From NCBI GenBank assembly GCA_028015205.1, contig CM051516.1, positions 24,604,593 through 24,668,592 on the forward strand: 64,000 bases of DNA, given 5' to 3'. Of this stretch, positions 15,471-46,364 are shown piece by piece. Each line of letters begins with the position of its first letter. Position 1 is the first letter of the stretch. The translations under genes and the position numbers were made by a program. A model generated the notes under the pieces. That model was not told the origin of the DNA. It searched no databases and was given only the letters and a program-made list of their open reading frames with translations. The DNA comes from Mytilisepta virgata. Its lineage: Eukaryota > Mollusca > Bivalvia > Mytilida > Mytilidae.

Positions 15471-16281
15471 CTATAAATTGAATTGCGACTTGTCCGTAAA
15501 TGTCGTCCTGTGACTTTCTGTCTGTAGTACAATTATGTTAATTCTTCAGGATTTTTTCCAATCAATTGAATCTATGAGAATGTTTAACAACATTAAAATG
15601 AAAAAAATAGTGGTATTATTTGTGAATAATTGATAACTGATTTAAACTTATGACCAGTTCACGACATATATTGGTCGTGACGTCACAACCTTACAAATTG
15701 GCGACAAGATGATCGACAGTGCAACAATTGTGTTCCTAAAAACATTTGATCAAATACAGTTATTACTTTACATACATTACATATCTGAATTACGCTTTTA
15801 TCTTGACCAGAATTGGCGCTGGCCTTTAAATCTCATAGAAGGTAAAATGTAAAGCTTATAACTTCCTCCATAAAATAGTACATAACTATATTTCAAACAC
15901 TCGTGCAAAATAAGGTGGGAAATAATGACCTACATGTACATGTATGTTTCAAAATTGAAACAAAATATTCATAAGTAAACTCTTTAAAATACATATATAT
16001 ATCAGTGCTACTTCAGAATTAAGTACATATAACAATATTCCAAGGTACCAAAGTCAAAACATAGGTGAACTACAAGTTTCTATGGAACGAAATTACCTGA
16101 AAATGGTTGGAAAGTAAACTGTGTAAATATTATTTCTCTTCAAAATTAATAATATATACGAATTTACTATTAAAGCATTGACATACATAAAAGTGAATAA
16201 ACTAAATAAAAATTGATACACGTTCCGCCCTCGTATGTCAGAAATATAGCAATTGTAATTATAGTTGCATTTTTATTTCAG
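15471..16281. other. No gene recognised; intron or 5' flank of the TIR gene
   Basis: AT-rich. The last bases form the polypyrimidine tract and AG (TTTTTATTTCAG, ending 16281) that I take as the acceptor of the exon at 16282. No upstream coding exon could be identified. Confidence 0.5.
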
Positions 16282-18522
16282 GTCTTTGAACAGTGTAAGG
16301 GACATCTCAAAGCAAGGATGCAAATGGATATTTTGGAGTTACTTGTGATACGTTTCTCACTTTGTAGTTTGCCCTTTATTGCAGTTACTTTACTCTCTAA
16401 AAAAAAAGACTTCGAATTTTGGTGGAAATATACGCCTGTTTGTTTCTTTATTCTGTTATCAGTATTTCTTCCAAGAAAAATAAGGTGGATGTTTAAATAC
16501 CTTGTACCAATTATTTTATTGACAATTGATATAAAACATATGTTTTCGTTGCAGACGACAAATAAGTACACAGATTTATTTTTGGATAGTTTCTTCTACA
16601 TCGGCCCGACTACTTTCATTTTATTTATTAAATCATGGCAAGATGAAGCGCGTTCGATACTTATCATACTTACATTACGAATTTATAAATGGATATCAAA
16701 ATTCGGATACCTCCGCATTTTTCTCTACATATTATTGTGTACAGCAAATGCCTTCCTGTTTGTTTTCCTGTTTCAGTATATTGAACTTACAATGTGTAGT
16801 GCAATGTTCAACAAGTATATGAATCCATCAACTATGTCTGTATCAGTGAACGCAGAAAATAGAAATAAAGATTATAATTTACCAGAGCTACAGGCATATG
16901 AAATGTATTTTTCGTACGAATTACATTTACTGAATGGTAGTTTAGAACATAACGGATATTTTGCAAAAATAAATGATATCAGATCGCCCCTTTGCAGAAA
17001 GGCTTACTATAGAGTGCCGGGAGAGGACGTATTGCTTTCCTGTTACGTGAATGTAAGAAGAACCGAGTTAGATTATGATGGTCATACTGAATTTAGTGGG
17101 AATTACAAACATTTTTATTGGATGATGGATAAAAAGCGTATAAAATCAGGTGATCAGATATTCTTGGATGATCATGGTGCTCACCTTAAAATTAACTCTA
17201 TTACAAAACGATATTTCAACAAAGAAATAATTTTATGGGCAGAGAAAGGCGTCTTGTCTTTTCAAGGTAAACTATTAAAGATAAGAATAAAGATTGGATA
17301 TTTCTTCATTTATTTGCAGAAGGAGTTAGTTCATTATGTACATATTCCGAATGGTCACGTTTTGGACATAAATAATTTAAAATTTCACGTTTCAGCTCAA
17401 AATGAAGATGTTGTTATTCACCATAGCGTGGATAGTATTGTTAGTGAAAAAGTTCAAGGGAACAGTGCCACGCTTTGCAATTCCAAATTCGATGGATGCA
17501 GTCCTTTTGTTCATTTTTTGTTCAAGATATCTTACAAGAAATACTTTTTCGACAACCATATCCTTAATTCTGTTCACCATTCCTCTGTAAAAGACACATA
17601 TTCAGCAAGATCTCTCTCTTGTGTTTGCGAATTAATATATGGAAAACATTATTATTTTGTTCAAAAATTTCGACTGAACCCGAAATCAAAGATTTATACT
17701 GTAGACGAGTTTCAGTTACCGTATTTATTTATAGTTCTTCCAATCGGAATGACATCGTTTTCTAGGTCAACATACGAAACGTTAAGGATCGAAGTTTTGG
17801 AACGCATATCTAAAAACGAAAATTGGAGATACGCTTTTCGATTTTTTAAAGATGAAACAACATTTTATTTTTATATGCATATATTTGAATACATAGTTGT
17901 TTCAATGTCTGTTGGTCATATTTTTATGATTTTCATCTGGGCAATTAAAATTTATAACTTTTTTTTTGTTCGGAAAGTAGCAAGCCTTATATTGGTAAGG
18001 AATCCACATGCTATGCCTATCGAAAACTGTCCATGTAAAAAAACGCAAAATATCGCGGCTTTGACTTATGTCAGCGAGATCGTGTATGACATTATGATAA
18101 TCTATAATTGTGAGGATTATGAACTTGCAATAACCGCTTTTGTCCCCTTTTTTGAGGAACATGCCTTCAAAGTGTTTCTAGATGAACGCAATATAACTCC
18201 TGGACGATCACTAATATCAGCTTATTACGAAGCCGTGCAGTCTAGTAGGTTATATGTGGTCATCGGATCTGGAACCTTTCTGGACGATCGATGGAATAAT
18301 GAATTTGTTTTGCGAGATTTGGTCTTACCAATAATCCACGAACGCCAAGGACATCATGTGATTTTGATTAAGTGGAATATTGCTGAAGTACCACCTCCTT
18401 TACGATGGAACCCACAGGTAGTAATAGCGAATTGGTCTGAAACATTAACGCTTCGAGATAACATAACTGTTCTTAGAAATAAGCTAAAGGAAATACCATG
18501 TATTGGAAGAAGGTTTTGCTGA
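16282..18522 (+). CDS. TIR-domain membrane receptor-like protein, long terminal exon
   Basis: An open frame runs from 16213 to a TGA at 18520-18522 (768 codons), but without an ATG until 16318. A phase-0 acceptor (TTTTATTTCAG) lies just before codon 24 (16282), so an upstream exon is likely; otherwise translation starts at Met36. Residues from the open-frame start: five or six hydrophobic helices between about 42 and 190; a ~360-residue region that is probably extracellular; an Ig-like core at about 262-345 (Cys277, Trp303, LKINSI at 325-330, with Trp342 where the second Cys is expected); a transmembrane helix at about 557-580; and a TIR domain at about 625-760. TIR box 1 is YDIMIIY, box 2 FLDERNITPG. 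The WNNEF motif carries Glu at the position equivalent to the conserved acidic residue. The classical box-3 FW is absent. Probable role: innate-immune or cell-surface signalling through TIR-TIR contacts. Ligand unknown. Confidence 0.8.
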   Translation, partial: VFEQCKGHLKARMQMDILELLVIRFSLCSLPFIAVTLLSKKKDFEFWWKYTPVCFFILLSVFLPRKIRWMFKYLVPIILLTIDIKHMFSLQTTNKYTDLFLDSFFYIGPTTFILFIKSWQDEARSILIILTLRIYKWISKFGYLRIFLYILLCTANAFLFVFLFQYIELTMCSAMFNKYMNPSTMSVSVNAENRNKDYNLPELQAYEMYFSYELHLLNGSLEHNGYFAKINDIRSPLCRKAYYRVPGEDVLLSCYVNVRRTELDYDGHTEFSGNYKHFYWMMDKKRIKSGDQIFLDDHGAHLKINSITKRYFNKEIILWAEKGVLSFQGKLLKIRIKIGYFFIYLQKELVHYVHIPNGHVLDINNLKFHVSAQNEDVVIHHSVDSIVSEKVQGNSATLCNSKFDGCSPFVHFLFKISYKKYFFDNHILNSVHHSSVKDTYSARSLSCVCELIYGKHYYFVQKFRLNPKSKIYTVDEFQLPYLFIVLPIGMTSFSRSTYETLRIEVLERISKNENWRYAFRFFKDETTFYFYMHIFEYIVVSMSVGHIFMIFIWAIKIYNFFFVRKVASLILVRNPHAMPIENCPCKKTQNIAALTYVSEIVYDIMIIYNCEDYELAITAFVPFFEEHAFKVFLDERNITPGRSLISAYYEAVQSSRLYVVIGSGTFLDDRWNNEFVLRDLVLPIIHERQGHHVILIKWNIAEVPPPLRWNPQVVIANWSETLTLRDNITVLRNKLKEIPCIGRRFC

Positions 18523-30930: not shown

Positions 30931-31100
30931 AATTAAATTATAAGGAATGTTTCCAATTTTTTAACAGGTTATACTTCAATAACCTCGTTTGGGTCAGTTC
31001 ATGGCATTCATAAACCGCTGGTTTATTATGCCTAAATAGACCCAAACCAGGTTATATCGTAGAAACTTTCAAAAATTGGAAAAATTCCTTAAATAATTAT
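30931..31100. repeat. Foldback, ~170 bp, nearly fully self-complementary
   Basis: Left words TAAGGAATGTTTCCAATTTTT, AACCTCGTTTGGGTC and ATGGCAT pair with ATGCCTAAATAGACCCAAAC, AGGTTAT and AAAAATTGGAAAAATTCCTTA on the right. The apex is AAACCGCTGGTTT. Confidence 0.6.
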
Positions 31101-31898
31101 TCTATGTGACTATTTTATGCTATCATTCACATAATACTTTATCGCTATATGAATTGTTGTTGTATAGCAATGTAATATTCCTTGTTAAACACAACCAAAA
31201 ATTAGCGCTGATATTGCACTGAGTGCTCATCAGTAGTTTTCTTGGTTGGTTGGAAGGTCTTATTTGCTTTGATATACAAAGAAAGCGCTACTACACAAAA
31301 TTGGGAAATAATGTCCCTTCGTAAAATATTGTATCACACCCGCAAGCTCGTGCGATTTTACATTCTACTACGGACAGTGTTTCCTAATATTCATAAAATA
31401 ACCTCAAATTATAGTCCAAGTACATTATATTGCAACAAGTGATTAAACAAAAAAATTGCAAGCGCCCGTACAGTACACGTATAAGCACCTATACAGTCAG
31501 AGAAATGATGTGTTGTTTGTTTGCAAGTAATTTACTTCATTTTATAGGCAAAATAATTCGATAAAATTTGGTTTTAGCGTATAAAAAGGAATTAACTTCT
31601 GGATAACCTAAAGAATACCTTCTTATTTCTTACCATGTTTTACTTATTCAGTTTTAAAGTCAAAATTTCAAACACTAAATGTAAGAAGCATCTTGATCAA
31701 AGCTTGATAAAAGTGATATTAATCATATTTGTGAAAAAAATGTTCTTGTAATTTTATAGGCATTTAAACAGTCAAGTGTCAAAGGAGGCAAACATACCTA
31801 AACTTTCCATAAAATCTGTGTAAAATTCCAAAATCTATTATTAAGTCTGAGCGATCTTCCTTGCAAGTGACCGATTTGCTGCTATACAAAATCGCAAC

Positions 31899-31998
31899 TT
31901 AACAACTGACAGAAAACATGTTCATTTCCGCTCCCACACTGTGATCAGAGTATAAACATTTTAGTGCATCGCTTATAATTATAGGATCCAATAATGAG
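31899..31998 (-). pseudogene. LINE endonuclease domain, distal piece (continues from 45063, split by the Gypsy element)
   Basis: Read on the minus strand after excision of the LTR element, the frame left open at 45068 continues as LDPIIISDALKCLYSDH, the C-terminal APE-endonuclease block with the SDH catalytic motif, and then meets a stop at about 31899. The continuity across 13 kb proves that the LTR element inserted into this LINE. Confidence 0.75.
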
Positions 31999-32652
31999 TG
32001 TCATGCCGGCCAACCTACATGTACAGGTGTACATGTTTCTATATTTATTTATTATTCATTGATTGGTGTTGATATATTATTATGACAAATATTATGTTCT
32101 GTATTTATTGAAAGTGCTATATAATTGTTAATTCAGATTAAGTAACTTTTACACTCTATATAATAGATTTTCTACTTTCACTTTCATTGTTTACATTTTG
32201 TAATAGTACATTACGTCATTGGAATGTTGACCGGAAGCCCTCCATATGCAAATTTATTTATGTTTACCGTTGCCGATAATTACTGTATTTATGTTATCTA
32301 GCTATTGTATGTCATAATTGCAGTAGGGCACTTCATATTTTATGTATTATTGTTAATTGATAACCTGCATTATTGCAGGAAAGGTCGCAAAGTCTTGTTT
32401 TCAAAGTTAGGGAACTTCATGTGTTGTGAGATCGGAGGGCGCTTCCGAATCGTATTTTTACCTTTAAATACCTTTGTAATCTGTTATTTAAGGCATGACT
32501 GCTTCAGTATTTTATCGCTGAATAGTTGTATTTCATTGTCAGCTTTCATGCATGCCTGTATATTGTTAATTTTACATAAATATCTCCGAGAGTGCATGGT
32601 CATTTTTAGCTTACTTTTACCGGAAGTAATTGGTCAAAGCAAGAAGCCTTTT

Positions 32653-32700
32653 CATTGGCTAGCATTTTATGACGTCAGTTGCCGCCACTGAGCGTCAGAT
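32653..32700 (+). promoter_or_regulatory. Putative LTR promoter: inverted CCAAT box, CRE, Inr-like start
   Basis: ATTGGCT (32654-32660, reverse CCAAT) is followed by a perfect CRE, TGACGTCA (32670-32677), and, some 15-20 bp on, CACTGAGCGTCAGATT, where an initiator-type start (TCAGATT) is possible. No TATA box in the usual place. The spacing is typical of TATA-less CRE/CCAAT promoters. CREB/ATF-family control is inferred. The same sequence is in the 3' LTR at about 43958-44005. Confidence 0.5.
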
Positions 32701-32751
32701 TTGAGAATACTTTCAATTCGGGAAGACGCAATATCCAACCGCTCAAGATAA

Positions 32752-32787
32752 ATGTCTCAAGCACAGCTTGCTTCCGCCGTAGCGATG
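32752..32787 (+). CDS. Leader coding exon for the third gene (12 codons, start ATG to splice donor)
   Basis: The first ATG downstream of the putative start site (32752) opens MSQAQLASAVAM, whose last ATG codon (32785-32787) abuts a donor, ATG/GTAAAT. The exon ends in phase 0. The acceptor TTTTAATTGCAG at 41335-41346 opens the third gene also in phase 0. Unspliced, the frame ends ten codons later at a TGA, making a 22-codon upstream ORF in the genomic RNA. This is how a retroviral env mRNA is made. Here it would supply the otherwise missing start codon of the third gene. Inference from sequence only. Confidence 0.6.
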
Positions 32788-32894
32788 GTAAATTATTATT
32801 ACCAAATTCGTGTTTTATGATATTTAATTCACGCGGAAATAATTATGTTGATTTTAGCTTATTTTTAGTCTCTATTTCTTGGGCAAACGTCCGT

Positions 32895-33380
32895 GAGTTG
32901 CACCTTGAAACTTGGTGCAACTTCGCACTTGTTGAATATTTGAGTATTAGCTTCTTTGGCTAATATGGATAGGAAATAACAGTTTAGATATATTTTATTC
33001 CGTTTATTGTAATATTTGGCGGATTTTGTTCTTGTGCCGTTTTTGCCTATTGGAATTGTTTTAATATTTGATCCTGGTGCTCCTTGCACCAGAAACTTTG
33101 ATTTGATGTCTTGGTGCACCAGAATAACTTTAGGACAGTTTTGCACCTTACTTTGAATAGTAAATAGTTTAGTTGAAACCTCGAGGTGCAAGACTCTGTA
33201 AAACAAATTCTTGCACCACGTTTGGCGCACCTTGAAGTTACTGCACCAGGAATTCTCGGTGCATAACTATTATTTGCACCATAACCTGTTTTGTTATTGC
33301 ACCATAAATTCTGGTGTTGCACCACATTTAATACCTTCGCTTTGCACCTCAATCTTTAGGTGCAATGTTAATGCACCTCA
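32895..33380 (+). other. Array of TGCACC/GGTGCA motifs forming serial hairpins in the LTR R region
   Basis: About 11 TGCACC and 5 GGTGCA hexamers in under 500 bp, where about 0.25 is expected for both strands. Many pair locally: AGTTGCACC with GGTGCAACT (9 bp); CTGGTGC with GCACCAG (7 bp, 5-nt loop); palindrome TGGTGCACCA; GGTGCAAGA with TCTTGCACC; TTGCACCT with AGGTGCAA; AGGTGCA with TGCACCT. Both LTRs carry the identical array. If R starts near 32690 and ends after 33502, it is present at both ends of the genomic RNA. Confidence 0.8.
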
Positions 33381-33501
33381 TATTTTTATAGGGACCACGC
33401 ACTCTCCTATATAAATCATATGCTATTATTCTAGTTGATATTATTCTTGTTGAATATTGTACTTTGATCTATTATTCATAACATGCTGTGACTTCTGGTA
33501 C

Positions 33502-33507
33502 AATAAA
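33502..33507 (+). terminator. LTR polyadenylation signal AATAAA
   Basis: TACAATAAATCATAAACTTG is the only AATAAA in the distal part of the LTR, with GT/T-rich sequence (ACTTGATTCTGAGTAG) following. It is the natural end of R. Repeated in the 3' LTR at about 44806-44811, where it would end the transcript. Confidence 0.6.
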
Positions 33508-33694
33508 TCATAAACTTGATTCTGAGTAGTCACTTCAAGCCAAATAGACTGCTCCCTACTATTTTACAAACGAGCTCCTGAAGGAAGACTGCATGATGAT
33601 CGAACCCATCCCCCTTTTGAACACTGATTAGAACCAGTGTATTTATATTACGATATTCCCCTTGTTCGTTGCTCACCTCACTGTGGCTTGCGTG

Positions 33695-33726
<32 letters not shown>

Positions 33727-33761
33727 AGATAACTACCACACTGGCGGGGCAGCACGACAAC

Positions 33762-33779
33762 TGGCATCCTCGGCGGGAT
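33762..33779 (+). other. Putative primer-binding site
   Basis: TGGCATCCTCGGCGGGAT starts 2 nt after the LTR end and begins with the TGG that pairs to tRNA 3' CCA. I could not name the tRNA. Matching it to the acceptor/T-arm ends of the host tRNA set would decide. Confidence 0.5.
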
Positions 33780-33969
33780 GATTAACTGACATAGTTATCT
33801 TCCATTTGAACATGTTGAATTTAAACCTTAAATTAAAGGTTACTAGTTGAAATTTATTATTTCCTATAGTGGTCCTGTATATGTACTACCTGTAGCTTCC
33901 CGATTGTTAGTTGATTTATTTATTCTCATTTCTCACATTACCCTGTTGATTGTATTTAATATTGACAAA

Positions 33970-35574
33970 ATGGATAACTCCAGAAATTTTGATGATTCTC
34001 TGAATGAGAGCACACATAGTCGAAACGTACCTGAAAATCTAATGGAATTTGATGTGGTGGACGAAGTAGTTGGTACCCCCGTCAGGTCCCCAAGAGATTA
34101 CAATAATAGGGCTAATATGGGCCAAGTTGATTTCAATAGAATGTGGCAAGACATGGAAAACAAATTTCAAAGTCACCAGGCTCAAATGAAAGCCCAAATT
34201 GAAGAAATGATTTCACGAGTAAATGCTGAAATCTCAGTAATTAAAGATGGGCTTCAAAACCCAAGTTCTCTAAGAAATCAATTAGAATCTGGAGACCACC
34301 ATAACAATGGCTCGTCAGTACCACAATTGTCACAACCTCCTATAAATTATAATGAAAATACATGTACTATAAATAGAGAAAATCAACACAATATATCTGC
34401 AGCTAATAATTTTATTAGTAACAGTAGTTCAGTTGGTCAGTGTAGACAACATGTTGATCATACTATTAACACTCAGTTGAATATGACAAATGCTGGTCCT
34501 CGGCAGTCTTGTAGTTTGCCAAATAGTTACAAAAATTCAACCTCATTGTCTGGAAACAGTAGTCAAAATCAAAATGCTGGTGCTAAAATGAAGCCACAGT
34601 ATTATGATGGGTCTGAAGATCTAGACGATTATTTGGCACAATACGAAATTTTAGCAGATTTAAACTCGTGGAGTTACGAAGCCAAATCATTATATTTAGC
34701 AAGTAGTCTAAAAGGTGATGCGAGAGCTTTACTTTCGGAATTGAGTTCTCTTGAGAGGCGTGATTATGAGTGTCTTGTCAAGATATTGACAGTGAGATTT
34801 GGTTCTTGGAATCGTGCTGAGATCTACAAGGCCAATCTGCAGACGAGGGTCAAACGTCGTGATGAGTCAATATCAGAAGTGGCCCAATCAATAAAAAAAT
34901 TAACCAGGCAAGCATATCCTAACGCACCGTACAGTGTAATTTCCACACTGGCCAGGGATCATTTTATTGATGCTCTCCCTGAGGCAGATATGAGGCTTCG
35001 TCTCCGTGAGGCGCAAGTCAATGACATATCAGATGCAGAGATTTTAGCTATGCGGCTGGAGGCGTATCGTGTTGCGGATCGCCAAAAGTCAAGTAGGAAG
35101 AATATGCACTTTGCAAACCAAGTCAGTACGGATGGTTGTCCGGATCCCACATTACAGGACTCCACAGTAAAATCTATTGTTGATGGTTTTAGGCATGAGT
35201 TCAAAGGGTTGGCTAATGATCTCAAGCAAGTTGTCAAATCTCAGCCTAAACCTGAAAAAGAAAAACAGAGTTTTAGATCAAACCATGGAAATCAAAATAG
35301 TAGAGATCAAAATTATAATAATGGTTGGTCAAATAACAACGGTTTCCAAACCCGTAGATACAATGGTGGTTCGAGTACTGGTCATTTTAATCAGTACACC
35401 AATGGCCAAAATAGACCTTATAACAACGGTGAAAATAGATCTTATAACAATGGACAAAATAGATATAACAATAATTTGAACCCATATAGAACTGGTTTCC
35501 AGGGAAACCAAAATATGTCGAGCACAGGGGCCAGTGCAAGACAAATGAGACAAGGCCCACCACAGTCCGGTTAA
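33970..35574 (+). CDS. gag: Gag polyprotein of the Gypsy-type element
   Basis: 534 codons from the first ATG (33970) to TAA. The frame is open from 33847, but the earlier part has no ATG. A 5' half with a Met/Gln-rich coiled stretch (about 34140-34260, DMENKFQSHQAQMKAQIEEM) and an Asn/Ser-rich linker precedes a retrotransposon capsid-like region (about 34590-35100) with YYDGSEDLDDYLAQYE, LKGDARALL and ARDHFIDALPEADMR. The C-terminus (35280-35570) is an Asn/Gly/Arg tail with repeated NGQNR/NNGENR units and no CCHC zinc knuckle, unusual for a Gypsy Gag. Basic RNA binding by the Arg/Asn tail is inferred. Intact in this copy. Confidence 0.9.
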   Translation: MDNSRNFDDSLNESTHSRNVPENLMEFDVVDEVVGTPVRSPRDYNNRANMGQVDFNRMWQDMENKFQSHQAQMKAQIEEMISRVNAEISVIKDGLQNPSSLRNQLESGDHHNNGSSVPQLSQPPINYNENTCTINRENQHNISAANNFISNSSSVGQCRQHVDHTINTQLNMTNAGPRQSCSLPNSYKNSTSLSGNSSQNQNAGAKMKPQYYDGSEDLDDYLAQYEILADLNSWSYEAKSLYLASSLKGDARALLSELSSLERRDYECLVKILTVRFGSWNRAEIYKANLQTRVKRRDESISEVAQSIKKLTRQAYPNAPYSVISTLARDHFIDALPEADMRLRLREAQVNDISDAEILAMRLEAYRVADRQKSSRKNMHFANQVSTDGCPDPTLQDSTVKSIVDGFRHEFKGLANDLKQVVKSQPKPEKEKQSFRSNHGNQNSRDQNYNNGWSNNNGFQTRRYNGGSSTGHFNQYTNGQNRPYNNGENRSYNNGQNRYNNNLNPYRTGFQGNQNMSSTGASARQMRQGPPQSG

Positions 35575-36866
35575 ATATATCCAAATTTGGAGATCAAGGG
35601 TTATTTGTAGCCGCAAAGATCCAAAATGATTGTATAAATATGTTGATTGATACTGGTGCCAGTGTCACCATACTGAATAAAACTGTTTTTGATAAATTGT
35701 ACCCTTCCCCTCCAAATTTTTTAGAACCTGTGCAGTTAAGTTTAGTAACTGCTACAGGTGAGATTGCTCCATTTTATGGAAAGAAAATTGTTGATATTAC
35801 CATTGGAGATCATATGTATAGCCAAGAAATTTTGGTGGCCGATATTCAAAACGATGGAATTCTGGGAGTTGATTTTTTGTCACCTAATAAAATAGATGTA
35901 CTTTTAAGTAAAAGTTGTTTGATGATAAGAGGAAAGAAAATTCCATGTTTTCATTTTGATAAAAAGTTGAAACCGACAGTTTGTCGTGTTGCTGTGACTG
36001 AGGACATAGTAGTTCCTCCAGGATCAGAGATCCTAGTTCAAGGAAAAATTGTTGATCCCATTATTAATATTGAAACTGGTTTAGTCAGTTCAGTGTCAAA
36101 TATTGATAAGACAGGGCTTATGATGGCTTATGAGTTAGTTAATATTGAGAATGAACTGGTTCCCCTTAGATTGATGAATATCACAGATAAAGTCTGTAAA
36201 ATGAAGAAACATACTATTACTGCTCAGTTAGAGGCTGTTGACCCACGAAACCCTGTTATTTCTAAAAATAAAGTTGAACACAACAAAGTTGATGTAAATA
36301 ATGTTGTCGTTTCTGATGTGATACCCCCTCATTTAGTAGACTTATACCAAAATAGTTGTGAAGGCCTTGATGAAAAGGAGAAGGCCCAATTTAGAGCCCT
36401 CCTTATAAAATTTCAGGATGCTTTTTCGAAAGATCCTAAAGATATTGGTACTACACCCCTTATTGAGCACACCATAGATACCGGTGATGCGAGACCAATT
36501 AAAATACCACCCCGAAGAATCCCAATATCAAAGATAAAAGAGGCCGAACAAGAGATGGAAGAAATGGCTGAACGTAACATAATTGAGCCCAGTGACAGTC
36601 CCTGGTGTTCACCAGTTGTTTTAATAACCAAAAACGATGGGTCATTGCGATTTTGCATTGATTACCGTCAGTTGAATGCTAGAACTATAAAATCTGGTCA
36701 GCCTATTAATCGAATTGACGATTCATTAGATGCCTTGTCGGGTGCTAAACTGTTCTCAGTTTTAGACCTAAGGAGTGGGTATTGGAATGTCAAAATAGCA
36801 GATCAAGATCGCCCGAAGACAGCTTTTGCAATACCTGGCAGTGGCTTGTGGCAGTTTAAGAAAATG
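35490..36866 (+). CDS. pol: Pol, 5' part: aspartic protease and N-terminal half of reverse transcriptase
   Basis: The frame, -1 relative to gag, is open from 35490, overlapping gag by 85 nt. Protease: LIDTGASVTIL (active-site DTG at about 35646), flap/second half with DGILGVDFL. RT: fingers from about 36490 (PPRRIPISKIKEAEQEM), WCSPVVLITKNDGSLRFCID, RQLNARTIKSGQP and FSVLDLRSGYW carrying the first catalytic Asp. Reading ends at LWQFKKM, where the 1.4-kb insertion begins. The RT is completed after it at 38275. Expression as Gag-Pol through frameshifting is indicated by the slippery heptamer at 35502. Confidence 0.9.
35502..35508 (+). promoter_or_regulatory. -1 ribosomal frameshift slippery site G-GGA-AAC
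   Basis: GGGAAAC sits with GGA AAC in gag-frame codons, 12 nt after the pol frame opens and 66 nt before the gag stop. That is the X XXY YYZ arrangement needed for -1 slippage into pol. Downstream, GGGGCC (about 35527) can pair with GGCCC (about 35554), and GCAC with GTGC in its loop, a possible stimulatory hairpin or pseudoknot. The heptamer type is known from simple retroviruses. Function here is inferred. Confidence 0.6.
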
Positions 36867-38271
36867 GGTCAAAGACACAAATGGCCGGGTTGCTGGGTGT
36901 TATTGTAGTGGTGACAAAGGTGATTAAAAGATCATATTGCACATGGGAAATAATTCTTGAAATAATTCCATAAAGTGAGGTGCACATCTTCAATATATAT
37001 AGAAACATTCTATGAAGTTTCAAGGATGTGGGTGAAAAACTGTAGGAGGAGTTGATTTCACAAAATAGGTACCCTCTATTGAAGATGTCAATAAAAAACG
37101 ACTAAGTTCCAATGTTTGGAAAAATGGGAAATAATTCCTGAAATAATTCCATAAAGTGAGGTGCACATCTTCAATATATATAGAAACATTCTATGAAGTT
37201 TCAAGGATGTGGGTGAAAAACTGTAGGAGGAGTTGATTTCACAAAATAGGTACCCTCTATTGAAGATGTCAATAAAAAAACAACTAAGTTCCAATGTTTG
37301 GAAAAATGGGAAATAATTCCTGAAATAATTCCATAAAGTGAGGTGCACATCTTCAATATATATAGAAACATTCTATGAAGTTTCAAGGATGTGGGTGAAA
37401 AACTGTAGGAGGAGTTGATTTCACAAAATAGGTACCCTCTATTGAAGATGTCAATAAAAAACGACTAAGTTCCAAGGTTTGGAAAAATGGGAAATAATTC
37501 CTGAAATAATTCCATAAAGTGAGGTGCACATCTTCAATATATATAGAAACATTCTATTAAGTTTCAAGGATGTGGGTGAAAAATTGTAGGAGGAGTTGAT
37601 TTCACAAAATAGGTACCCTCTATTGAAGATGTCAATAAAAAAACAACTAAGTTCCAAAGTTTGGAAAAATGGGAAATAATTCCTGAAATAACTCCATAAA
37701 GTGAGGTGCACATCTTCAATATATATAGAAACATTCTATGAAGTTTCAAGGATGTGGGTGAAAAACTGTAGGAGGAGTTGATTTCACAAAATAGGTACCC
37801 TCTATTGAAGATGTCAATAAAAAAACAACTAAGTTCCAAAGTTTGGAAAAATGGGAAATAATTCCTGAAATAACTCCATAAAGTGAGGTGCACATCTTCA
37901 ATATATATAGAAACATTCTATGAAGTTTCAAGGATGTGGGTGAAAAACTGTAGGAGGAGTTGATTTCACAAAATAGGTATCCTCTATTGAAGATGTCAAT
38001 AAAAAACGACTAAGTTCCAAAGTTTGGAAAAATGGGAAATAATTCCTGAAATAATTCCATAAAGTGAGGTGCACATCTTCAATATATATAGAAACATTCT
38101 ATGAAGTTTCAAGGATGTGGGTGAAAAACTGTAGGAGGAGTTGATTTCACAAAATAGGTACCCATTTTCCCCGCCCGCCCGCCGCCGCCGCCGCCCGCCC
38201 GCCGCCCGCCCGCCGCCCGCCCGACATTCACCATACTATAACCCGGATTTGCACTCTGTGCAACCCGGCCA
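36867..38271. mobile_element. Satellite-bearing insertion in RT: seven ~181-bp units and a GC microsatellite
   Basis: Splits RT between LWQFKKM and MPFGLCNAP. AAAATG is present on both sides (36861-36866, 38272-38277), a likely 6-bp target duplication. Inverted TGGCCGGGTTGC (36882-36893) and GCAACCCGGCCA (38260-38271) lie at or near the ends; the left copy is 15 bp inside. The core has seven starts of CAAGGATGTGGGTG spaced 181-183 bp, almost identical to each other, then a CCGCCCGCC tract (38168-38222). Non-autonomous, no ORF. Minus-strand open frames here merely reflect the 181-bp unit. Confidence 0.85.
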
Positions 38272-38274
38272 AAA

Positions 38275-40713
38275 ATGCCATTCGGCTTGTGTAATGCTCC
38301 TGCCACTTTTGTTAGATTGATGGAAAAGGTTTTAAGGGGCTTATCCTTTAAAATTTGTCTAGTTTATCTAGACGACATTATAGTTATGTCAAAGACATTT
38401 GAAGAGCATCTTGATAATTTAGCTCAAGTCATTTCATGCTTACAACAAGCTGATTTAAAATTGCATCCAAAGAAATGTGATTTATTTAAAGAAAAAGTAT
38501 CCTTTTTGGGACATGTTGTTAGTGCAGACGGTGTTGCTACTGACCCTGCAAAGTTAGAATCTGTGATGAATTGGCCCGTTCCCAAAAATTTAAAACAAGT
38601 GCGATCATTTATCGGTTTTTGTTCGTACTACCGAAGATTTATTAAAGGATTTGCTGATATAGCTCGTCCATTACATAAGCTGACTGAGGCAGGTCAGAAG
38701 TTTGAATTTAATGATATATGTTTGAAAGCTTTTGAAACCTTAAAGGCTGCCCTTACTAGTGCACCTATATTAGGTTACCCCAATGCTGAAGGTTCTTTTG
38801 TATTAGATACCGATGCAAGTAATGAGGGTATGGGGTCTGTTTTGTCCCAAACTCAAAATGGAGTTGAGCGAGTTATTGCTTACTTTAGCAAAGCATTTTC
38901 CAAGCAGGAACGCAGATACTGCGTCACCAGAAGAGAACTTCTTGCCGTAGTGGCATCCATAAAACATTTCCACCACTATTTGTATGGTCATAAATTTTTA
39001 GTTCACAGTGACCATGGTGCTTTGAGGTGGATTTTTAATTTTAAAAACCCTGAAGGTCAGCTAGCTCGATGGCTTGAGACCCTGGCTACTTACGATTTTA
39101 AGATTGAACATCGAGCTGGTCGAGTCCACTCAAATGCTGATGGCTTATCTAGACGTCCATGTTGTGAGTCAGGATGTAATTACTGCCTCCGAGCTGAAAC
39201 GAGATATGAAAATAACTCACATTTAATGAGTCCAATTTTGGAAAATGAGAAATGTAGATTTGAAAATATAAATGTAGATGAGAATGTTTCCAATAATATT
39301 AGTAACCCTTGTGTAAATGCTGTGACTAGGTCCCAGACAAAATCTGGAAGTTCGACCGAGTCGGATGATAAATTGCACTTTGGGAATGACAAATCTTTGT
39401 TCGATGAACAAAGACGGGATCCGGTTATTGGGAAAGTCATTGAATGGGTTTTGAATAAAGAACGTCCTGATTGGCAGAAAATATCAGCTGAAGGTGTTGA
39501 ATTGAAATTTTACTGGTCAAGGTTTGATTCTCTTGATATGAGAGATGATATTTTGTGTCATAAATTTGAAAATGATGTTGGAAATAAAGTTACATGGCAA
39601 ATTTTACTGCCCATCAGTTTACGTAAAACTGTGTTGAATTATTTACATAATGTCCCTACTGCTGGACATCTTGGTGTTAAAAAGACTTTAGTGAAAGTCC
39701 GGTCCAGATATTTTTGGTATGGATTGAGACGAGACGTTGAATACTGGATCTCAAAATGTGATATTTGTACATCCAGAAAAGGTCCTAGTAGAAAGCCCAA
39801 AGCCCCTTTGAGAATATATTCTGTTGGTGTTCCTATGGAACGTTTAGCCATTGATGTGACAGGCCCCTTTCCCAGATCGAAACAAGGCAATAGATTTATC
39901 CTTGTCATTAGTGATTATTTTACAAAATGGACTCAAGCTTTTGCTATGAGAGATCAAGAAGCTCCTACTGTTGCAAATATTTTAGTAAACGAGGTTATTT
40001 CCCTTTTTGGTGTGCCTCGTTTGCTACACAGTGACAAAGGTTCAAACTTTGAGTCAAATGTGTTTACTGAAATGTGTAAGCTTCTTGGAATTGACAAAAC
40101 ACGGACTACCACCAAAAGACCCCAATCTGATGGTATGGTAGAACGTAATATTAAAACCATAAAAGAAATGTTGTCTGCCTTTGTTGATACAAACCAAAAA
40201 AACTGGGATGTAAATATACCTTTACTGATGATGGCTTATCGGTCAGCAATTCATGCGTCCACTGGAGTCAGTCCCTGCTCCATGATGTTGGGAAGATAGA
40301 TAACTCTTCCGGTTGAACTTCTTCTGGGTATCCCTGAAAAAGAAAATGTTGAATTTACAAATGCTACCCAATATGCGTATGAATTGGCTGAAAGTATGAA
40401 TCTCATACATGATTTTGCCCGAAATCGATTGAAGTTAACTGGTCAAACCATGCAGAAGTATTATAATCATAAAACATTGTATAAACAGTATGAACCTGGA
40501 ACTCCTATTTGGTTTCATAATCCTAAATCCACAAAAGGATTAAGTAGAAAATTACAACCCCAGTGGTGTGGTCCATTTATTGTGACACATAAATTGAACG
40601 ATGTAATTTATAGAATTCAAGAAACTCAAAAATCCAAACCTAAAGTTGTCCACCATGATAGATTGAAATTATATACTGGAGACAACGCTCCAAAGTGGTT
40701 TACCCCTAGTTAA
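38275..40713 (+). pseudogene. pol: Pol, 3' part: rest of RT, RNase H, integrase; in-frame stop
   Basis: Residues count from the Met of MPFGLCNAP. YLDD at 31-34 (RT catalytic pair). RNase H at about 175-290 with DTD (178-180), Glu221, Asp246 and Asp289. Integrase HHCC finger His458, His465, Cys495, Cys498. Catalytic core Asp527, Asp587 and Glu623. An in-frame TAG at 40297-40299 follows MMLGR. The same frame then continues to 40713 with the C-terminal integrase domain (WCGPFIV, a GPY/F-type motif, and VVHHDRLKLY). All catalytic residues are present. One nonsense change and the upstream insertion are the only lesions I see. Confidence 0.9.
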
Positions 40714-40775
40714 ATTGTTTAAAATACAAATAGATAAAACAACATGTAGTATTGTCATTATTTTGGCAATTTGAT

Positions 40776-41148
40776 GGTTATATGAGCATCTACTGTAGAG
40801 AATGCTCTCGTAGATGCATAACCAACAATTGTTTCTTGTCTATTATGTATAACTTTGAAATAAATGCTGTTCCATTTAGTTGAAATATAAATGTATTATT
40901 CATGTAGAATTTCTTAATTACGACCTGTCAGTTAGGTGTCGTTGGTCTATCGGAAAGAATGTTGATTGAAAAGTTTATAAAATATCGTGTATAGAAAGAA
41001 CAGTGGTTGAAAAGATCTTTATATATAGATGATTTGTATTTGTTCGAGTATTGATTATATTCCTTTTATGCTAATGGTATACAAGTATTAAAAGTAGAGC
41101 TTATGGAAGCCTCCATTGTAGAGAATGCTCTCATGGATGGTGTAAGCT
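40776..41148 (+). other. Two related RNA hairpins between pol and the third gene
   Basis: Hairpin 1 (40776-40823): GGTTAT...GCATCTAC, loop TGTAGAGAATGCTCTC, GTAGATGCATAACC. Hairpin 2 (41098-41148): AGCTTA...CCTCCAT, the identical 16-nt loop, ATGGATGG...TAAGCT. Stem bases differ while pairing is kept: the loop-closing C-G becomes T-A, the third pair T-A becomes C-G, and the outer arms GGTTAT/ATAACC become AGCTTA/TAAGCT. The loop can itself form GAGA/TCTC. This pattern points to selection on RNA structure. Position and duplication recall constitutive transport elements of simple retroviruses, an analogy only. Confidence 0.65.
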
Positions 41149-41346
41149 ATAGTGCAAATATGAAGTAATTTATATATGTTTACCAAGTTAAACATCTCTG
41201 TAGAATATCTGTATGGAAGACAGGAAGCAGACTGATCACCTGTAATTCGTCTTTCCCTACAAATAAAGTGAGAATAGATAAATATATAAGTTATTACGTA
41301 AAGTTATATTTTTATTTAAAATGTTGAATTTTTGTTTTAATTGCAG

Positions 41347-42606
41347 ATTACTCAATGGTCTTGTGGACTTTGTGGAACCCAGGAATTCAAGAGCCCACCC
41401 AAGGCCGTCATTAGACGCCACATCCTAGAGCAACATAGTGGCTTTGGCTTCAGATGTAATGGATGTAGTAAGATCTTCGGAAGAGCAGACCAACGCCACC
41501 AGGGTTGCAAGTATCCCAATGGGGGGAATGCAACCCTGATGAGCCGTTTAACTGGAAAGTCTGGGCCAGCTGTAGAGGCCGAGTATGAAATCTTTAAGAA
41601 GTCGGCAGAGGATCATATCAAAGCCAACCATACTACACACAGGGTACCTATACCTACCAAACCAGTAAAGAGGGCAAGCAGTGAGCCTGGCTTCAAGAAG
41701 CCACCAGCCAAACGTCAGAGGAGTATGTCTGTGGCATCAGCGCCCATGGTGTCACCACTGTCCAAAGTTGAGCCTCCCCCTGCCATTACCTACAGTACAA
41801 GTAAGTCTTGTGCTGTAGCCAGAAAGGGAATAATATTGGACAGTGGAACAGTTGATGGGGATGCTGATCTCCCCTTGGCTACCAAGGTACCGGTATCTGA
41901 AGTTCCTGAGGAGTCAGATGAGGTGGGGACTACAGTTGATAGTGTTTCTGAGGGCCCATCCTCATGCATCTCTGATGCTGAGGATGGTGAGATCCAATCC
42001 CAGCCGGATGATCAACTCAGCATTGCAGTTGATCCCTCAGAGACACTAAATGCCTTCAGCATGTCCACACCTCCCCCTAGTAGACAGGACTTCAGGAAGG
42101 TTGCTGCGCGTGCAGAAACCACAGAGACTGCAACTAGCAGTCGAGTAGACATGGCCACCACCGCCAATACCACCAGGCGTGTGGCACAGGATATTCAAGC
42201 TAGTGTGACGGAGGTAAAGCTGGCGTCCTGGAGCGACGCACAGAATGGGAGAGTTGTTCTCGATGTAGGGGGTACCAGGTTTGTGACATCAAAAGCCACA
42301 CTCAGAAGTGACCCAGGATCATTGCTCGCTGCAATGATCCAACCTGGTTCCCGCATGCACCATTTGAGGTGCGATGATTTCAATGCTCCTATTTACTTCC
42401 TTGACCGGGACCCAGCTCACTTCCGCCACATCTTGAACTACTTGAGATTAGGTAGCTCCTGGTCAGTTCAATCCTTACCTAGAGAGGCAAGGTACCTATA
42501 TGACATAAGGGCCGAAGCTGAACATTATATGTTGAAAGGGTTGATTGAAACTTTAAACAGGAGAATTGCCATACTGAGTGAAGCCCGCTTCGATGTAATT
42601 ATTTAA
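41347..42606 (+). CDS. Third gene of the element: zinc-finger-like N-terminus plus BTB/KCTD-type domain
   Basis: 419 codons following the acceptor TTTTAATTGCAG (AG 41345-41346). An in-frame TAA lies just upstream and the first internal ATG comes after the finger region, so splicing to a leader ATG (32752-32787) is needed. N-terminus: CGLC-X15-H-X4-H (about 41362-41433), then CNGC-X10-H-X2-C. Next come basic NLS-like patches (KPVKRASSEPGFKK, PPAKRQRS) and an acidic Ser/Glu-rich linker. The C-terminus from about 42250 reads VVLDVGGTRFVTSKATLRSD, then YFLDRDPAHFRHILNYLRLG and LPREARYLYDI, the KCTD/Kv T1 tetramerisation signature. Sits where env would be, between integrase and the polypurine tract. 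GC content is visibly higher than gag/pol. Probable host-derived nuclear, oligomeric nucleic-acid-binding protein. Intact. Confidence 0.85.
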   Translation: MTQWSCGLCGTQEFKSPPKAVIRRHILEQHSGFGFRCNGCSKIFGRADQRHQGCKYPNGGNATLMSRLTGKSGPAVEAEYEIFKKSAEDHIKANHTTHRVPIPTKPVKRASSEPGFKKPPAKRQRSMSVASAPMVSPLSKVEPPPAITYSTSKSCAVARKGIILDSGTVDGDADLPLATKVPVSEVPEESDEVGTTVDSVSEGPSSCISDAEDGEIQSQPDDQLSIAVDPSETLNAFSMSTPPPSRQDFRKVAARAETTETATSSRVDMATTANTTRRVAQDIQASVTEVKLASWSDAQNGRVVLDVGGTRFVTSKATLRSDPGSLLAAMIQPGSRMHHLRCDDFNAPIYFLDRDPAHFRHILNYLRLGSSWSVQSLPREARYLYDIRAEAEHYMLKGLIETLNRRIAILSEARFDVII

Positions 42607-43285
42607 ATTTTAATGTGGTTTAAGTTGCATACAGTTATATATTTTAATGTAGCTTTAAACTGCATACAGTTGACATATTTTCTATTTTATATAGAAAATT
42701 TATATTTAGTTGATATTTTGATTATAATGTCTAATTAGAGACATTTCATTCATACCTGTCAGTGGTATGCCATATTCAACCGCTAAGATGTCGTTCCAAG
42801 TGTCCATTCTCCAATTGATGACGATGTGTTACCATTTCCAAAGATGTACCTGAAGAATAAGAAGGACAATTCATAGTGCTATTTATTCGCTTGTGAGGAC
42901 ATTCACAAAGACAGTGCTTTTTATGTATTCATTGTAAATTTCTTATGAAAATTGTGTATATTTAATTATTAGGAATATGTATTGCTATGAGAAAGTATGT
43001 TATTTGACATTGTATAATATTGTTCTTGAATGTCAAATATATTTCTTTTTGTATATCAATTGGTAGGAGTATATAACGAGATTTTTAAGTATATGAGTGA
43101 ACATTTCATTTTTATTTTTTGAGCTATCTTTGAGCATTATGCTATGATATATTTAATTTTTCATAAAGATAAAGTAATGAAATGAAAAGTAATATGCATT
43201 GAAATATTTTCTTTCTATTTAAGTGTGTTACTTGATAAAATTTTATACTTACGGTAATTCTTTCACTCTATTGGAGACCAATTCC
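42607..43285 (+). other. Non-coding 3' region of the element
   Basis: AT-rich sequence between the third gene and the polypurine tract. No open frame or repeat of note, apart from the direct repeat of GCATACAGTT(A/G) with TATTTTAATGTAG (about 42620-42675). Confidence 0.6.
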
Positions 43286-43303
43286 AAAGTGAGGTGGGGG
43301 CAG
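43286..43303 (+). other. Polypurine tract
   Basis: AAAGTGAGGTGGGGGCAG lies directly before the 3' LTR TG. It is purine-rich apart from two T and a C, and in the position of plus-strand priming. Confidence 0.75.
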
Positions 43304-45062
43304 TGTCATGCCGGCCAACCTACATGTACAGGTGTACATGTTTCTATATTTATTTATTATTCATTGATTGGTGTTGATATATTATTATGACAAATATTAT
43401 GTTCTGTATTTATTGAAAGTGCTATATAATTGTTAATTCAGATTAAGTAACTTTTACACTCTATATAATAGATTTTCTACTTTCACTTTCATTGTTTACA
43501 TTTTGTAATAGTACATTACGTCATTGGAATGTTGACCGGAAGCCCTCCATATGCAAATTTATTTATGTTTACCGTTGCCGATAATTACTGTATTTATGTT
43601 ATCTAGCTATTGTATGTCATAATTGCAGTAGGGCACTTTATATTTAATGTATTATTGTTAATTGATAACCTGCATTATTGCAGGAAAGGTCGCAAAGTCT
43701 TGTTTTCAAAGTTAGGGAACTTCATGTGTTGTGAGATCGGAGGGCGCTTCCGAATCGTATTTTTACCTTTAAATACCTTTGTAATCTGTTATTTAAGGCA
43801 TGACTGCTTCAGTATTTTATCGCTGAATAGTTGTATTTCATTGTCAGCTTTCATGCATGCCTGTATATTGTTAATTTTACATAAATATCTCCGAGAGTGC
43901 ATGGTCATTTTTAGCTTACTTTTACCGGAAGTAATTGGTCAAAGCAAGAAGCCTTTTCATTGGCTAGCATTTTATGACGTCAGTTGCCGCCACTGAGCGT
44001 CAGATTTGAGAATACTTTCAATTCGGGAAGACGCAATATCCAACCGCTCAAGATAAATGTCTCAAGCACAGCTTGCTTCCGCCGTAGCGATGGTAAATTA
44101 TTATTACCAAATTCGTGTTTTATGATATTTAATTCACGCGGAAATAATTATGTTGATTTTAGCTTATTTCAAGTCTCTATTTCTTGGGCAAACGTCCGTG
44201 AGTTGCACCTTGAAACTTGGTGCAACTTCGCACTTGTTGAATATTTGAGTATTAGCTTCTTTGGCTAATATGGATAGGAAATAACAGTTTAGATATATTT
44301 TATTCCGTTTATTGTAATATTTGGCGGATTTTGTTCTTGTGCCGTTTTTGCCTATTGGAATTGTTTTAATATTTGATCCTGGTGCTCCTTGCACCAGAAA
44401 CTTTGATTTGATGTCTTGGTGCACCAGAATAACTTTAGGACAGTTTTGCACCTTACTTTGAATAGTAAATAGTTTAGTTGAAACCTCGAGGTGCAAGACT
44501 CTGTAAAACAAATTCTTGCACCACGTTTGGCGCACCTTGAAGTTACTGCACCAGGAATTCTCGGTGCATAACTATTATTTGCACCATAACCTGTTTTGTT
44601 ATTGCACCATAAATTCTGGTGTTGCACCACATTTAATACCTTCGCTTTGCACCTCAATCTTTAGGTGCAATGTTAATGCACCTCATATTTTTATAGGGAC
44701 CACGCACTCTCCTATATAAATCATATGCTATTATTCTAGTTGATATTATTCTTGTTGAATATTGTACTTTGATCTATTATTCATAACATGCTGTGACTTC
44801 TGGTACAATAAATCATAAACTTGATTCTGAGTAGTCACTTCAAGCCAAATAGACTGCTCCCTACTATTTTACAAACGAGCTCCTGAAGGTAGACTGCATG
44901 ATGATCGAACCCATCCCCCTTTTGAACACTGATTAGAACCAGTGTATTTATATTACGATATTCCCCTTGTTCGTTGCTCACCTCACTGTGGCTTGCGTGA
45001 AAAAAAAAAAAAAAAAAAAAAAAAAAGGGAGATAACTACCACACTGGCGGGGCAGCACGACA
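43304..45062 (+). repeat. 3' LTR, 1759 bp
   Basis: Matches 31999-33759 except about five substitutions (two near 43636-43643, two near 44169, one near 44888) and a 27-A instead of 29-A tract. Followed by the ATGAG duplication. Confidence 0.95.
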
Positions 45063-45860
45063 ATGAGCTTATGTTATCGGTAATTCTTGTTGGTTTATCG
45101 ATGACATTTCTAAAATTAAAATGACTAATGAGATCCCATAGCTTGTTATTATTAACGAACAAAAGATTTGAATTAAGGTCACGAGAAATCACGATGTTTT
45201 CGTTCGTTTGAAAGGCCTGCTCGATTGACCAAGTTAACCGAGTCCAAAAATCAGCGTCAGTCCGTTGTGGACGATATATATTACAAAGCAGAAACGATTG
45301 GTCTTTTGCATGTACTTCTGCCCAAAGAGTTTCATCCAAATGATTTTCAAATTCAGCTCTCCGTCTTATACCGATATTTTATATGTATAAATTAAAAGAC
45401 CGCCGCCATTGTCAGTACGATCTTTCCGTAGGGGACGTGGAATAAATGAATCTATTATTAGGCAACCGTTATCAATATTACTACTAAGATGTGTTTCAGT
45501 AAGGATAAGAATGTCAAATTCTTCGGCAAAAATGTGGAGAAAGTGTAATTTATTTCTGATACTGCGTATATTCATATTACAAATTGAAATAGATTTTTCT
45601 GCAGCCAAATTATCGGAGGCACTAATAGACGAATTGTTCGGGGTTTCGGGAGCAGGGTTAGTTTCGATATTACCTATGAGAAGTATAAAATGTAAAACAT
45701 AAAGAAGATAAACAGTATTTATTTTTGGATTTAAACTTTGAAGAATATGAAGGCAAGAGATGAAGAACGAGCACTGTAAGTTTATCATCAATATATCAAA
45801 ATAGTTATCTGTTTGAAAAACAGAGTTTCCGCACGATCTCTGTCTACTAGTATTGAAAAT
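45063..45860 (-). pseudogene. LINE (CR1/Jockey-like) 5' part: APE-type endonuclease, split by the Gypsy element
   Basis: On the minus strand, 45791-45366 reads NIETNPAPET (a conserved LINE N-terminal word), ICNMNIRSIRNKLHFLH, FDILILTETHLSS (catalytic Glu) and GGGLLIYTYK. After a frameshift, 45339-45068 reads LWAEVHAKDQSFLLCNIYRP, ENIVISRDLN (normally GDLN) and KPTRITDNISS, where the LTR element interrupts. The rest of the domain is at 31998-31899. Inactive because of the frameshift, the GDLN change and the insertion. Confidence 0.85.
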
Positions 45861-46364
45861 TACAATTGCTGCTCTATATTCTTCTATACTATTACCCGTT
45901 AGGGATTAAATATATAAAAATATGGAAGCAGCAAAAGGAAAACTTATAACAACTAGAATAATCATCAGGTATTTCTTCGCATAAGTCATCACCACAGGAA
46001 AACATTGGAAAATTTAAGTACAATGTCTTTGAAAACATGGACCATAATAAAATACTGTACATTATAAGGTAAACTAGTGCCATTTACAGGCAAAAGAAGA
46101 TAGATGGAAGCTTCGTATAGGAAAATGTATTATTCGTATTATACAATTACTGTATTATAATCTCTTCAATTTAAACACAAGGGAAGATTATCTATTTCTC
46201 ACATTGGAAAAAAAAAACCAGAACCAATGAATTCATAGAACAAAAGAACAAAAAAGTTTATTCTCTGAAATAACCATTTCTATCGTTCCGGTTGGTATTT
46301 TTACCCATTTCTTCATGATACATGTGATACAAATGTACGGAGCCCCGCAGTGGACACGACAAAA
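45861..46364. other. No gene recognised
   Basis: AT-rich flank of the LINE 5' end. A 63-codon hydrophobic minus-strand frame (45892-46083) has no support. Confidence 0.45.

Follow-up and report, generated by a model that had tools for sequence, protein, structure and literature searches.

The window, a 64,000-nucleotide stretch of the Mytilisepta virgata genome, contains at positions 31999-45062 a single Ty3/Gypsy LTR retrotransposon insertion with gag, a broken pol and a third gene (ORF3) in the env position (Table 1). The LTRs are about 1.76 kb long and have TG..CA ends; since both of them and a 5-bp target duplication (ATGAG) flank 31999-45062, ORF3 lies inside one insertion. The 5' and 3' LTRs are identical at 1757 of 1764 aligned positions, the remainder being 5 substitutions and an A run that differs in length by 2 bases. 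Assignment to the Gypsy type, made earlier in a sequence-only reading of this DNA, agrees with the PR-RT-RNase H-IN domain order, the Ty3-like RT, the LTRs and the short target duplication, and the best match of pol among solved structures is Ty3 Gag-Pol (6.1e-84). A -1 frameshift at GGGAAAC probably joins gag to pol. In the window copy, pol is disrupted twice, by an unrelated repeat in RT and by a stop codon in integrase. The Gag protein has no zinc-knuckle match in Pfam, as had been noticed before, and neither gag nor ORF3 has a match in NCBIfam. The promoter-like cluster of the LTR is presumably made up of an ETS-type motif (ACCGGAAGT, 32619), two reverse CCAAT boxes (32629 and 32654) and a CRE (TGACGTCA, 32670). 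Joining of the two flanks of the insertion (31500-31998 and 45063-45800, minus strand) restores an endonuclease-like reading frame, which we take to be LINE-like.

Table 1. Features of the insertion and their coordinates in the window.
Feature	Position	Strand	Basis or remark
Target-site duplication ATGAG, 5' copy	31994-31998
5' LTR, TG...CA ends	31999-33759	+	LTR alignment
Promoter-like cluster in LTR	32619-32700	+	motif match
Proposed exon 1, peptide MSQAQLASAVAM, ATG/gtaaat donor, phase 0 with ORF3	32752-32787	+	inferred
Probable primer binding site TGGCATCCTCGGCGGGATG	33762-33780	+	read from sequence
gag-like ORF, N/G/R-rich tail, no Pfam zinc knuckle	33970-35574	+
Candidate -1 frameshift site GGGAAAC in gag frame	35502-35508	+	pol frame open from 35490
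pol, first part: protease and N-part of RT	35490-36908	+
Unrelated repeat in RT, seven 182-bp units	36872-38276		ends approximate
pol, second part: RT C-part, RNase H, integrase	38275-40713	+	in-frame stop at 40297
RNA hairpin 1 (distal)	40775-40824	+
RNA hairpin 2 (proximal)	41098-41148	+
Predicted 3' splice site ttttgttttaattgcag/	41330-41346	+	AG acceptor, same place in 9/9 loci
ORF3	41347-42606	+	open frame and Pfam
Polypurine tract	43286-43303	+	also in 3/3 near-identical copies
3' LTR	43304-45062	+
Target-site duplication ATGAG, 3' copy	45063-45067

The repeat inserted in RT has short inverted ends (GGCCGGGTTGC / GCAACCCGGCC), and a second copy of it, found at L027:2190-3129, adjoins RT-like sequence (43% over 37 residues). 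With its 182-bp units it presumably resembles the pearl-type bivalve elements. The words GGTGCA and TGCACC are abundant at 32890-33380 of the 5' LTR and in the matching part of the 3' LTR.

ORF3 was described in the sequence-only reading as an intact gene of 419 codons between integrase and the polypurine tract, and the frame is indeed open over this whole length; the longest open run in 2000 simulated sequences with the dinucleotide make-up of ORF3 was 211 codons. The start proposed for it, 41347, turned out to fall exactly after the AG of a predicted 3' splice site. The frame really opens six bases ahead of this exon start, at 41341, and its first in-frame ATG (41539) is located downstream of the zinc fingers, none being present before them. 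The predicted protein comprises tandem zinc fingers at residues 6-54 with the spacings C-x2-C-x15-H-x4-H (C2H2) and C-x2-C-x10-H-x2-C (C2HC), an NLS-like basic patch (residues 105-125), an acidic linker and a BTB_2 domain (residues 303-400). The combination of fingers with a domain of the KCTD/T1 type, likewise proposed before, was recovered. The profile search that had been suggested finds BTB_2 (Pfam, E of 5.9e-15), which is present in all seven members of alignment A2, whereas the C2H2 finger scores below Pfam's cut-off. The window and the five A2 relatives that span the fingers retain all eight Cys/His finger ligands; L034 also keeps all eight, its last spacing being one residue shorter. 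By sequence, the closest solved structures to the BTB domain are the T1 domain of KCNC1 (Kv3; 7.1e-10) and KCTD5 (5e-9), and the KCTD5 match spans the whole domain. The product is most likely soluble, with no transmembrane stretch in ORF3 (top 19-residue Kyte-Doolittle mean of 0.61, nothing above 1.6), and its KCTD-type domain would most likely make rings or tetramers. NES-like motifs in ORF3 are not above chance (4 found, 4.2 expected from shuffling). Single-sequence AlphaFold confidence is low, with a mean pLDDT of 38 for the whole of ORF3 and 45 for the BTB part, and a Foldseek search with this low-confidence BTB model gave no match at E <= 0.001.

ORF3 is GC-richer than gag and pol (0.497 vs 0.39 and 0.375-0.377, respectively), as had been observed, and its codon usage is distinct: the RSCU correlation of ORF3 with gag and pol is 0.33-0.46, against 0.77-0.86 among gag and pol. 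The contrast in GC had been taken to suggest capture of the gene from the host. The contrast itself holds; only GC and codon usage point to capture, which they do not by themselves establish.

A search of the 1.03-Gb host genome gave at least 117 stretches that match (from 100 scored candidates out of 139), 88 of which were grouped into 52 loci; the remaining 29, all at E of 1e-10 or weaker, were not used. At least 42 of the 52 loci carry both halves of the gene, i.e., finger and BTB matches on one strand within 2.5 kb. The family ranges from near-identical copies down to families about 25% identical. Four copies, including that of the window, are 99-100% identical, and one of these four has a stop. 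The three other near-identical copies all have ORF3 followed by the polypurine tract and an LTR, the distance from the ORF3 start to the 3' LTR being 1957, 1957 and 1952 bases as compared to 1957 in the window. Eight diverged loci (L029-L036) were also taken; because L030 is close to L036 and L033 to L034, these and the window, nine loci, represent seven families. Integrase lies upstream of ORF3 in all six diverged loci for which upstream DNA was taken, and it is 58-85% identical to that of the window. The gene is thus found beside the Gypsy parts whose presence the sequence-only reading had proposed to check, with integrase upstream of it in these six loci and an LTR distance constant within 5 bases in three of three near-identical copies.

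The matched stretches are free of stops in 28 of the 42 both-half loci and contain stops in the other 14; two of the 28 (L033 and L034) are disrupted between the matched stretches, so decay also occurs. Because most pairs are near saturation at synonymous sites, pN and pS are quoted here and their ratios are rough: for the window vs L029 they are 0.292 and 0.728 over the whole ORF3, 0.172/0.844 in the fingers, 0.173/0.747 in the BTB and 0.413/0.679 in the linker, with 0.111/0.647 for integrase, and for the window vs L031 they are 0.412/0.920 in the fingers, 0.236/0.787 in the BTB and 0.503/0.861 in the linker. Judged by these substitutions, purifying selection acts on the fingers and, most steadily, on the BTB, and less strongly on the linker. 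L030 and L036 differ by 1 synonymous and 3 nonsynonymous changes, which are too few to judge selection. The comparison across copies called for by the sequence-only reading, which had named absence of the gene from other copies, or stops in them, as the outcome that would speak for a one-off transduction, speaks against such a transduction as regards the three near-identical copies, all with the gene, and the selection between families; the 14 loci with stops are on the other side. ORF3 appears to be a fixed accessory gene of a Ty3/Gypsy clade, because of the number of loci, the integrase upstream and the purifying selection. The scans of viral_contigs and genome_contigs with ORF3 and of viral_contigs with pol revealed no relatives, and a plasmid tblastn gave a single chance match (E of 4).

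RS/SR dipeptides exceed the number expected from composition in three of eight proteins, belonging to two families only (18 in L030, 15 in L035 and 19 in L036; about 9 expected), which would fit an RNA-processing role. The window ORF3 shows no such enrichment and the other four scored proteins no clear excess. Eleven ORF3 relatives that have 441-aa frames and score almost equally, located on host contigs C4, C6, C8, C11, C12, C14 and C59, look like a family that spread recently. Two of them, L030 and L036, are separated by 4 differences, and their linker is richer in SR.

Two features beyond those described in the sequence-only reading, the 3' splice site of ORF3 and twin RNA hairpins, point to RNA regulation. 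At the homologous position, all nine loci examined (the window and L029-L036) have an AG acceptor that is in phase 0 with ORF3. This, together with the lack of an in-frame ATG upstream of the fingers in the window, makes a spliced mRNA likely; the acceptor is there in the sequence, and from it we infer that the ORF3 message is actually spliced. Similarity drops clearly at the acceptor for L029 alone (0.42-0.49 before, 0.64-0.76 after), the difference being small in L031 and L032. In L029 and L035, the ORF3 frame continues upstream of the acceptor and contains ATGs, so the fingers there could be translated without splicing. A donor in the LTR, GCG ATG/gtaaat (exon end 32787), ranks fourth of the 15 donor-like sites that score at least 1 with a crude matrix, is the sole site among the top nine with an in-frame ATG and phase 0, and is located just after the ETS/CCAAT/CRE cluster. 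Weaker donors within gag, at 35121 (tenth) and 34791 (thirteenth), likewise have phase 0; they would yield a Gag-ORF3 fusion instead of the LTR-exon product. A TATA box at 33408 and an AATAAA at 33502 in the LTR suggest a start site downstream of the proposed LTR donor, which counts against exon 1.

The two hairpins between integrase and the acceptor fold separately into one common shape of 20 pairs, of which 13 are the same in both, 5 differ at both bases and 2 at one. A repeated 15-base word was seen in 29 of 20,000 simulated spacers. An alignment of seven hairpins (two each from the window, L029 and L032, one from L031) has 91.4% paired cells. Two-sided changes are found in 9 of the 20 pairs (4.3 in shuffles, reached by 1 of 500), covariation is 0.405 vs 0.183 (sd 0.031) in shuffled alignments (reached by 0 of 500) and at most 0.074 when slid, and further pair types number 17 vs 13.6 in shuffles (reached by 16 of 500). 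RNAalifold on its own predicts 19 of the 20 pairs. The hairpins look selected at the RNA level, since they show wobble pairs and the reverse-strand fold of hairpin 2 is weaker. A hairpin model scores 67-73 bits on its seven training hairpins and 15.5 on the reverse strand of one, with no further match at E <= 1 in 362 kb; Rfam at gathering scores has no match in 31000-46000.

The loop is the most conserved part of the hairpin. Its 16-mer TGTAGAGAATGCTCTC occurs exactly 15 times in the 1.03-Gb host genome, and each of the 15 occurrences (10 loci; eight occurrences come from the four near-identical copies) precedes an ORF3 match on its own strand by 99-537 bases, counted to the start of that match. 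Among 20 matches with one mismatch, 6 are likewise upstream of ORF3, one more is 1.8 kb upstream and 13 lie near none of the 40 ORF3 loci used for comparison. The 35 matches in all reach 14 distinct ORF3 loci (0.0007 hits expected from coverage), while the loop pattern read backwards, as a control, has 4 matches in all. In L030, L033 and L035, far families that keep ORF3, no hairpin motif was found, so ORF3's role may not need hairpin RNA. The joint presence of hairpins and ORF3 in part of the group suggests a home-made system that handles the element's own RNA. Three one-mismatch loop words also lie within 410 bases of each other at C10:10467890-10468294, near none of the 40 ORF3 loci.

To our knowledge, the way in which unspliced genomic RNA leaves the nucleus is understood in very few LTR retrotransposons that lack envelope genes. 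We propose, partly by analogy, that ORF3 is made from a spliced mRNA and regulates the export or splicing of unspliced element RNA, a reading to which we give a probability of about 0.47, close to even. A 5' exon, probably in the LTR, would provide the start codon and be joined to the acceptor at 41346/41347, giving a subgenomic ORF3 message. The hairpins, which reside in the predicted intron, would be lost from this message and retained by unspliced element RNA alone. ORF3 would bind that RNA in the nucleus via the hairpins: the fingers would contact nucleic acid, the NLS-like patch would target the protein to the nucleus and the KCTD-type domain would assemble it. It would then promote export of the unspliced RNA and/or block its splicing, as CERV for Cer1 and Rev for HIV-1. 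This reading is favoured because of the predicted spliced message, the hairpins that unspliced RNA would keep and CERV as the nearest worked-out case.

CERV is the env-position protein of Cer1, a Gypsy element of C. elegans, and the available passages of PMC10309623 describe it as made from a spliced mRNA, containing a Cys finger, predicted to form a ring and needed for genomic RNA export. Cer1, as described there, and the present element are both Ty3/Gypsy retrotransposons with an env-position ORF that has no envelope features and encodes a finger and a candidate NLS. In Cer1 this ORF forms the C-terminal part of the protein from the spliced mRNA, which has a Cys-rich finger and a predicted ring of 5 or more; expression by splicing and a ring or tetramer are predicted for ORF3 as well. 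Unlike ORF3, CERV has domains H, M and G that are not BTB, shows no obvious homology outside nematodes and uses gag-derived peptides for its N-terminal half; Cer1 Gag has CCHC fingers, whereas the Gag of the ORF3 element has no Pfam zinc knuckle, and no RNA hairpin element is described for Cer1 in those passages (PMC10309623). A structured RNA in unspliced RNA, as predicted for the ORF3 element, is known from the Rev/RRE system of HIV-1 and from Mason-Pfizer monkey virus with its NXF1-binding RNA, and Rev multimerises on its RNA, as ORF3 by analogy might (PMC10309623, passages available). The putative ORF3 system differs from Rev/RRE in protein fold and in its small hairpins with a conserved loop. 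It is possible, with the odds somewhat against it, that a Rev/RRE-like circuit arose within this Ty3/Gypsy clade independently of CERV, Rev and the NXF1-binding RNA element; in it, a spliced zinc-finger/KCTD-ring regulator would read one or two intronic hairpins to export or protect unspliced genomic RNA.

The hairpins could instead serve packaging, marking genomic RNA because splicing removes them, with the ORF3 fingers or Gag binding them in place of a zinc-knuckle nucleocapsid and the BTB oligomerising. This is unlikely: a Gag without a Pfam zinc knuckle, hairpins within a predicted intron and two phase 0 gag donors that could fuse Gag to ORF3 are consistent with it, but the NLS-like patch suggests the nucleus and the far families keep ORF3 without the hairpin motif. 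Many KCTD proteins bind CUL3, and several do not. A role of ORF3 as a cullin-3 adaptor, whose BTB would recruit CUL3 while the fingers or the linker would pick a host silencing factor for degradation, would agree with the KCTD/T1 type of the domain and its full-length KCTD5 match; it leaves unexplained why all 15 exact matches to the hairpin loop are linked to ORF3, and we consider it improbable. The fingers may equally bind DNA. We put little weight on ORF3 being a DNA-binding regulator that acts on its own LTR or on the choice of integration sites, since the hairpins look selected at the RNA level, even though tandem C2H2/C2HC fingers, an NLS-like patch and the promoter-like LTR cluster would suit such a function.

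One-off transduction of a host exon that is non-functional in the element could account for the distinct GC and codon usage of ORF3 and for an acceptor inherited from a host gene, but it is very improbable and was rejected in view of the family of at least 42 both-half loci, the integrase upstream in six of six, the selection between families and the LTR at a constant distance. A degenerate or unusual envelope protein, i.e., an env or errantivirus membrane fusion protein, is suggested by position and was rejected as next to impossible, because ORF3 has an NLS-like patch and a BTB_2 domain and nothing above 1.6 on the Kyte-Doolittle scale.

ORF3 shares the BTB_2 domain with the KCTD and Kv T1 proteins and differs from them by its N-terminal tandem zinc finger, its long linker and its location in an LTR element. 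ZBTB transcription factors have an N-terminal BTB followed by a C-terminal C2H2 array; ORF3 likewise combines a BTB with zinc fingers but in reversed order, with a BTB of the BTB_2 type and odd finger spacing. The sORF1 and sORF2 proteins of the mdg1 group are also accessory proteins of LTR retrotransposons, sORF1 being subnuclear, yet in the available part of PMC11952523 they are short and encoded upstream of gag, sORF2 is membrane-bound and no evidence of splicing is given. The portions seen of PMC6238403, PMC8647823, PMC8672886, PMC2774666 and PMC9004415 hold nothing bearing on ORF3.

In the literature searched, with subscription journals thinly covered and papers partly seen, no BTB or KCTD gene was found on an LTR element, in line with the earlier statement that no described Ty3/Gypsy lineage was known to have such a gene. 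LTR elements with regulators are already known; a zinc-finger/KCTD protein together with an RNA hairpin element is new as far as that literature goes. In general, the earlier observation is confirmed and its interpretation partly supported. Ty3/Gypsy elements gain an old and widespread accessory gene with a KCTD-type domain, from which hosts might also domesticate zinc-finger/KCTD genes. The candidate protein and the candidate RNA site are conserved together and are small enough for in vitro work. Outside the insertion, the window also contains a 769-codon open frame at 16213-18522 with a C-terminal TIR domain.
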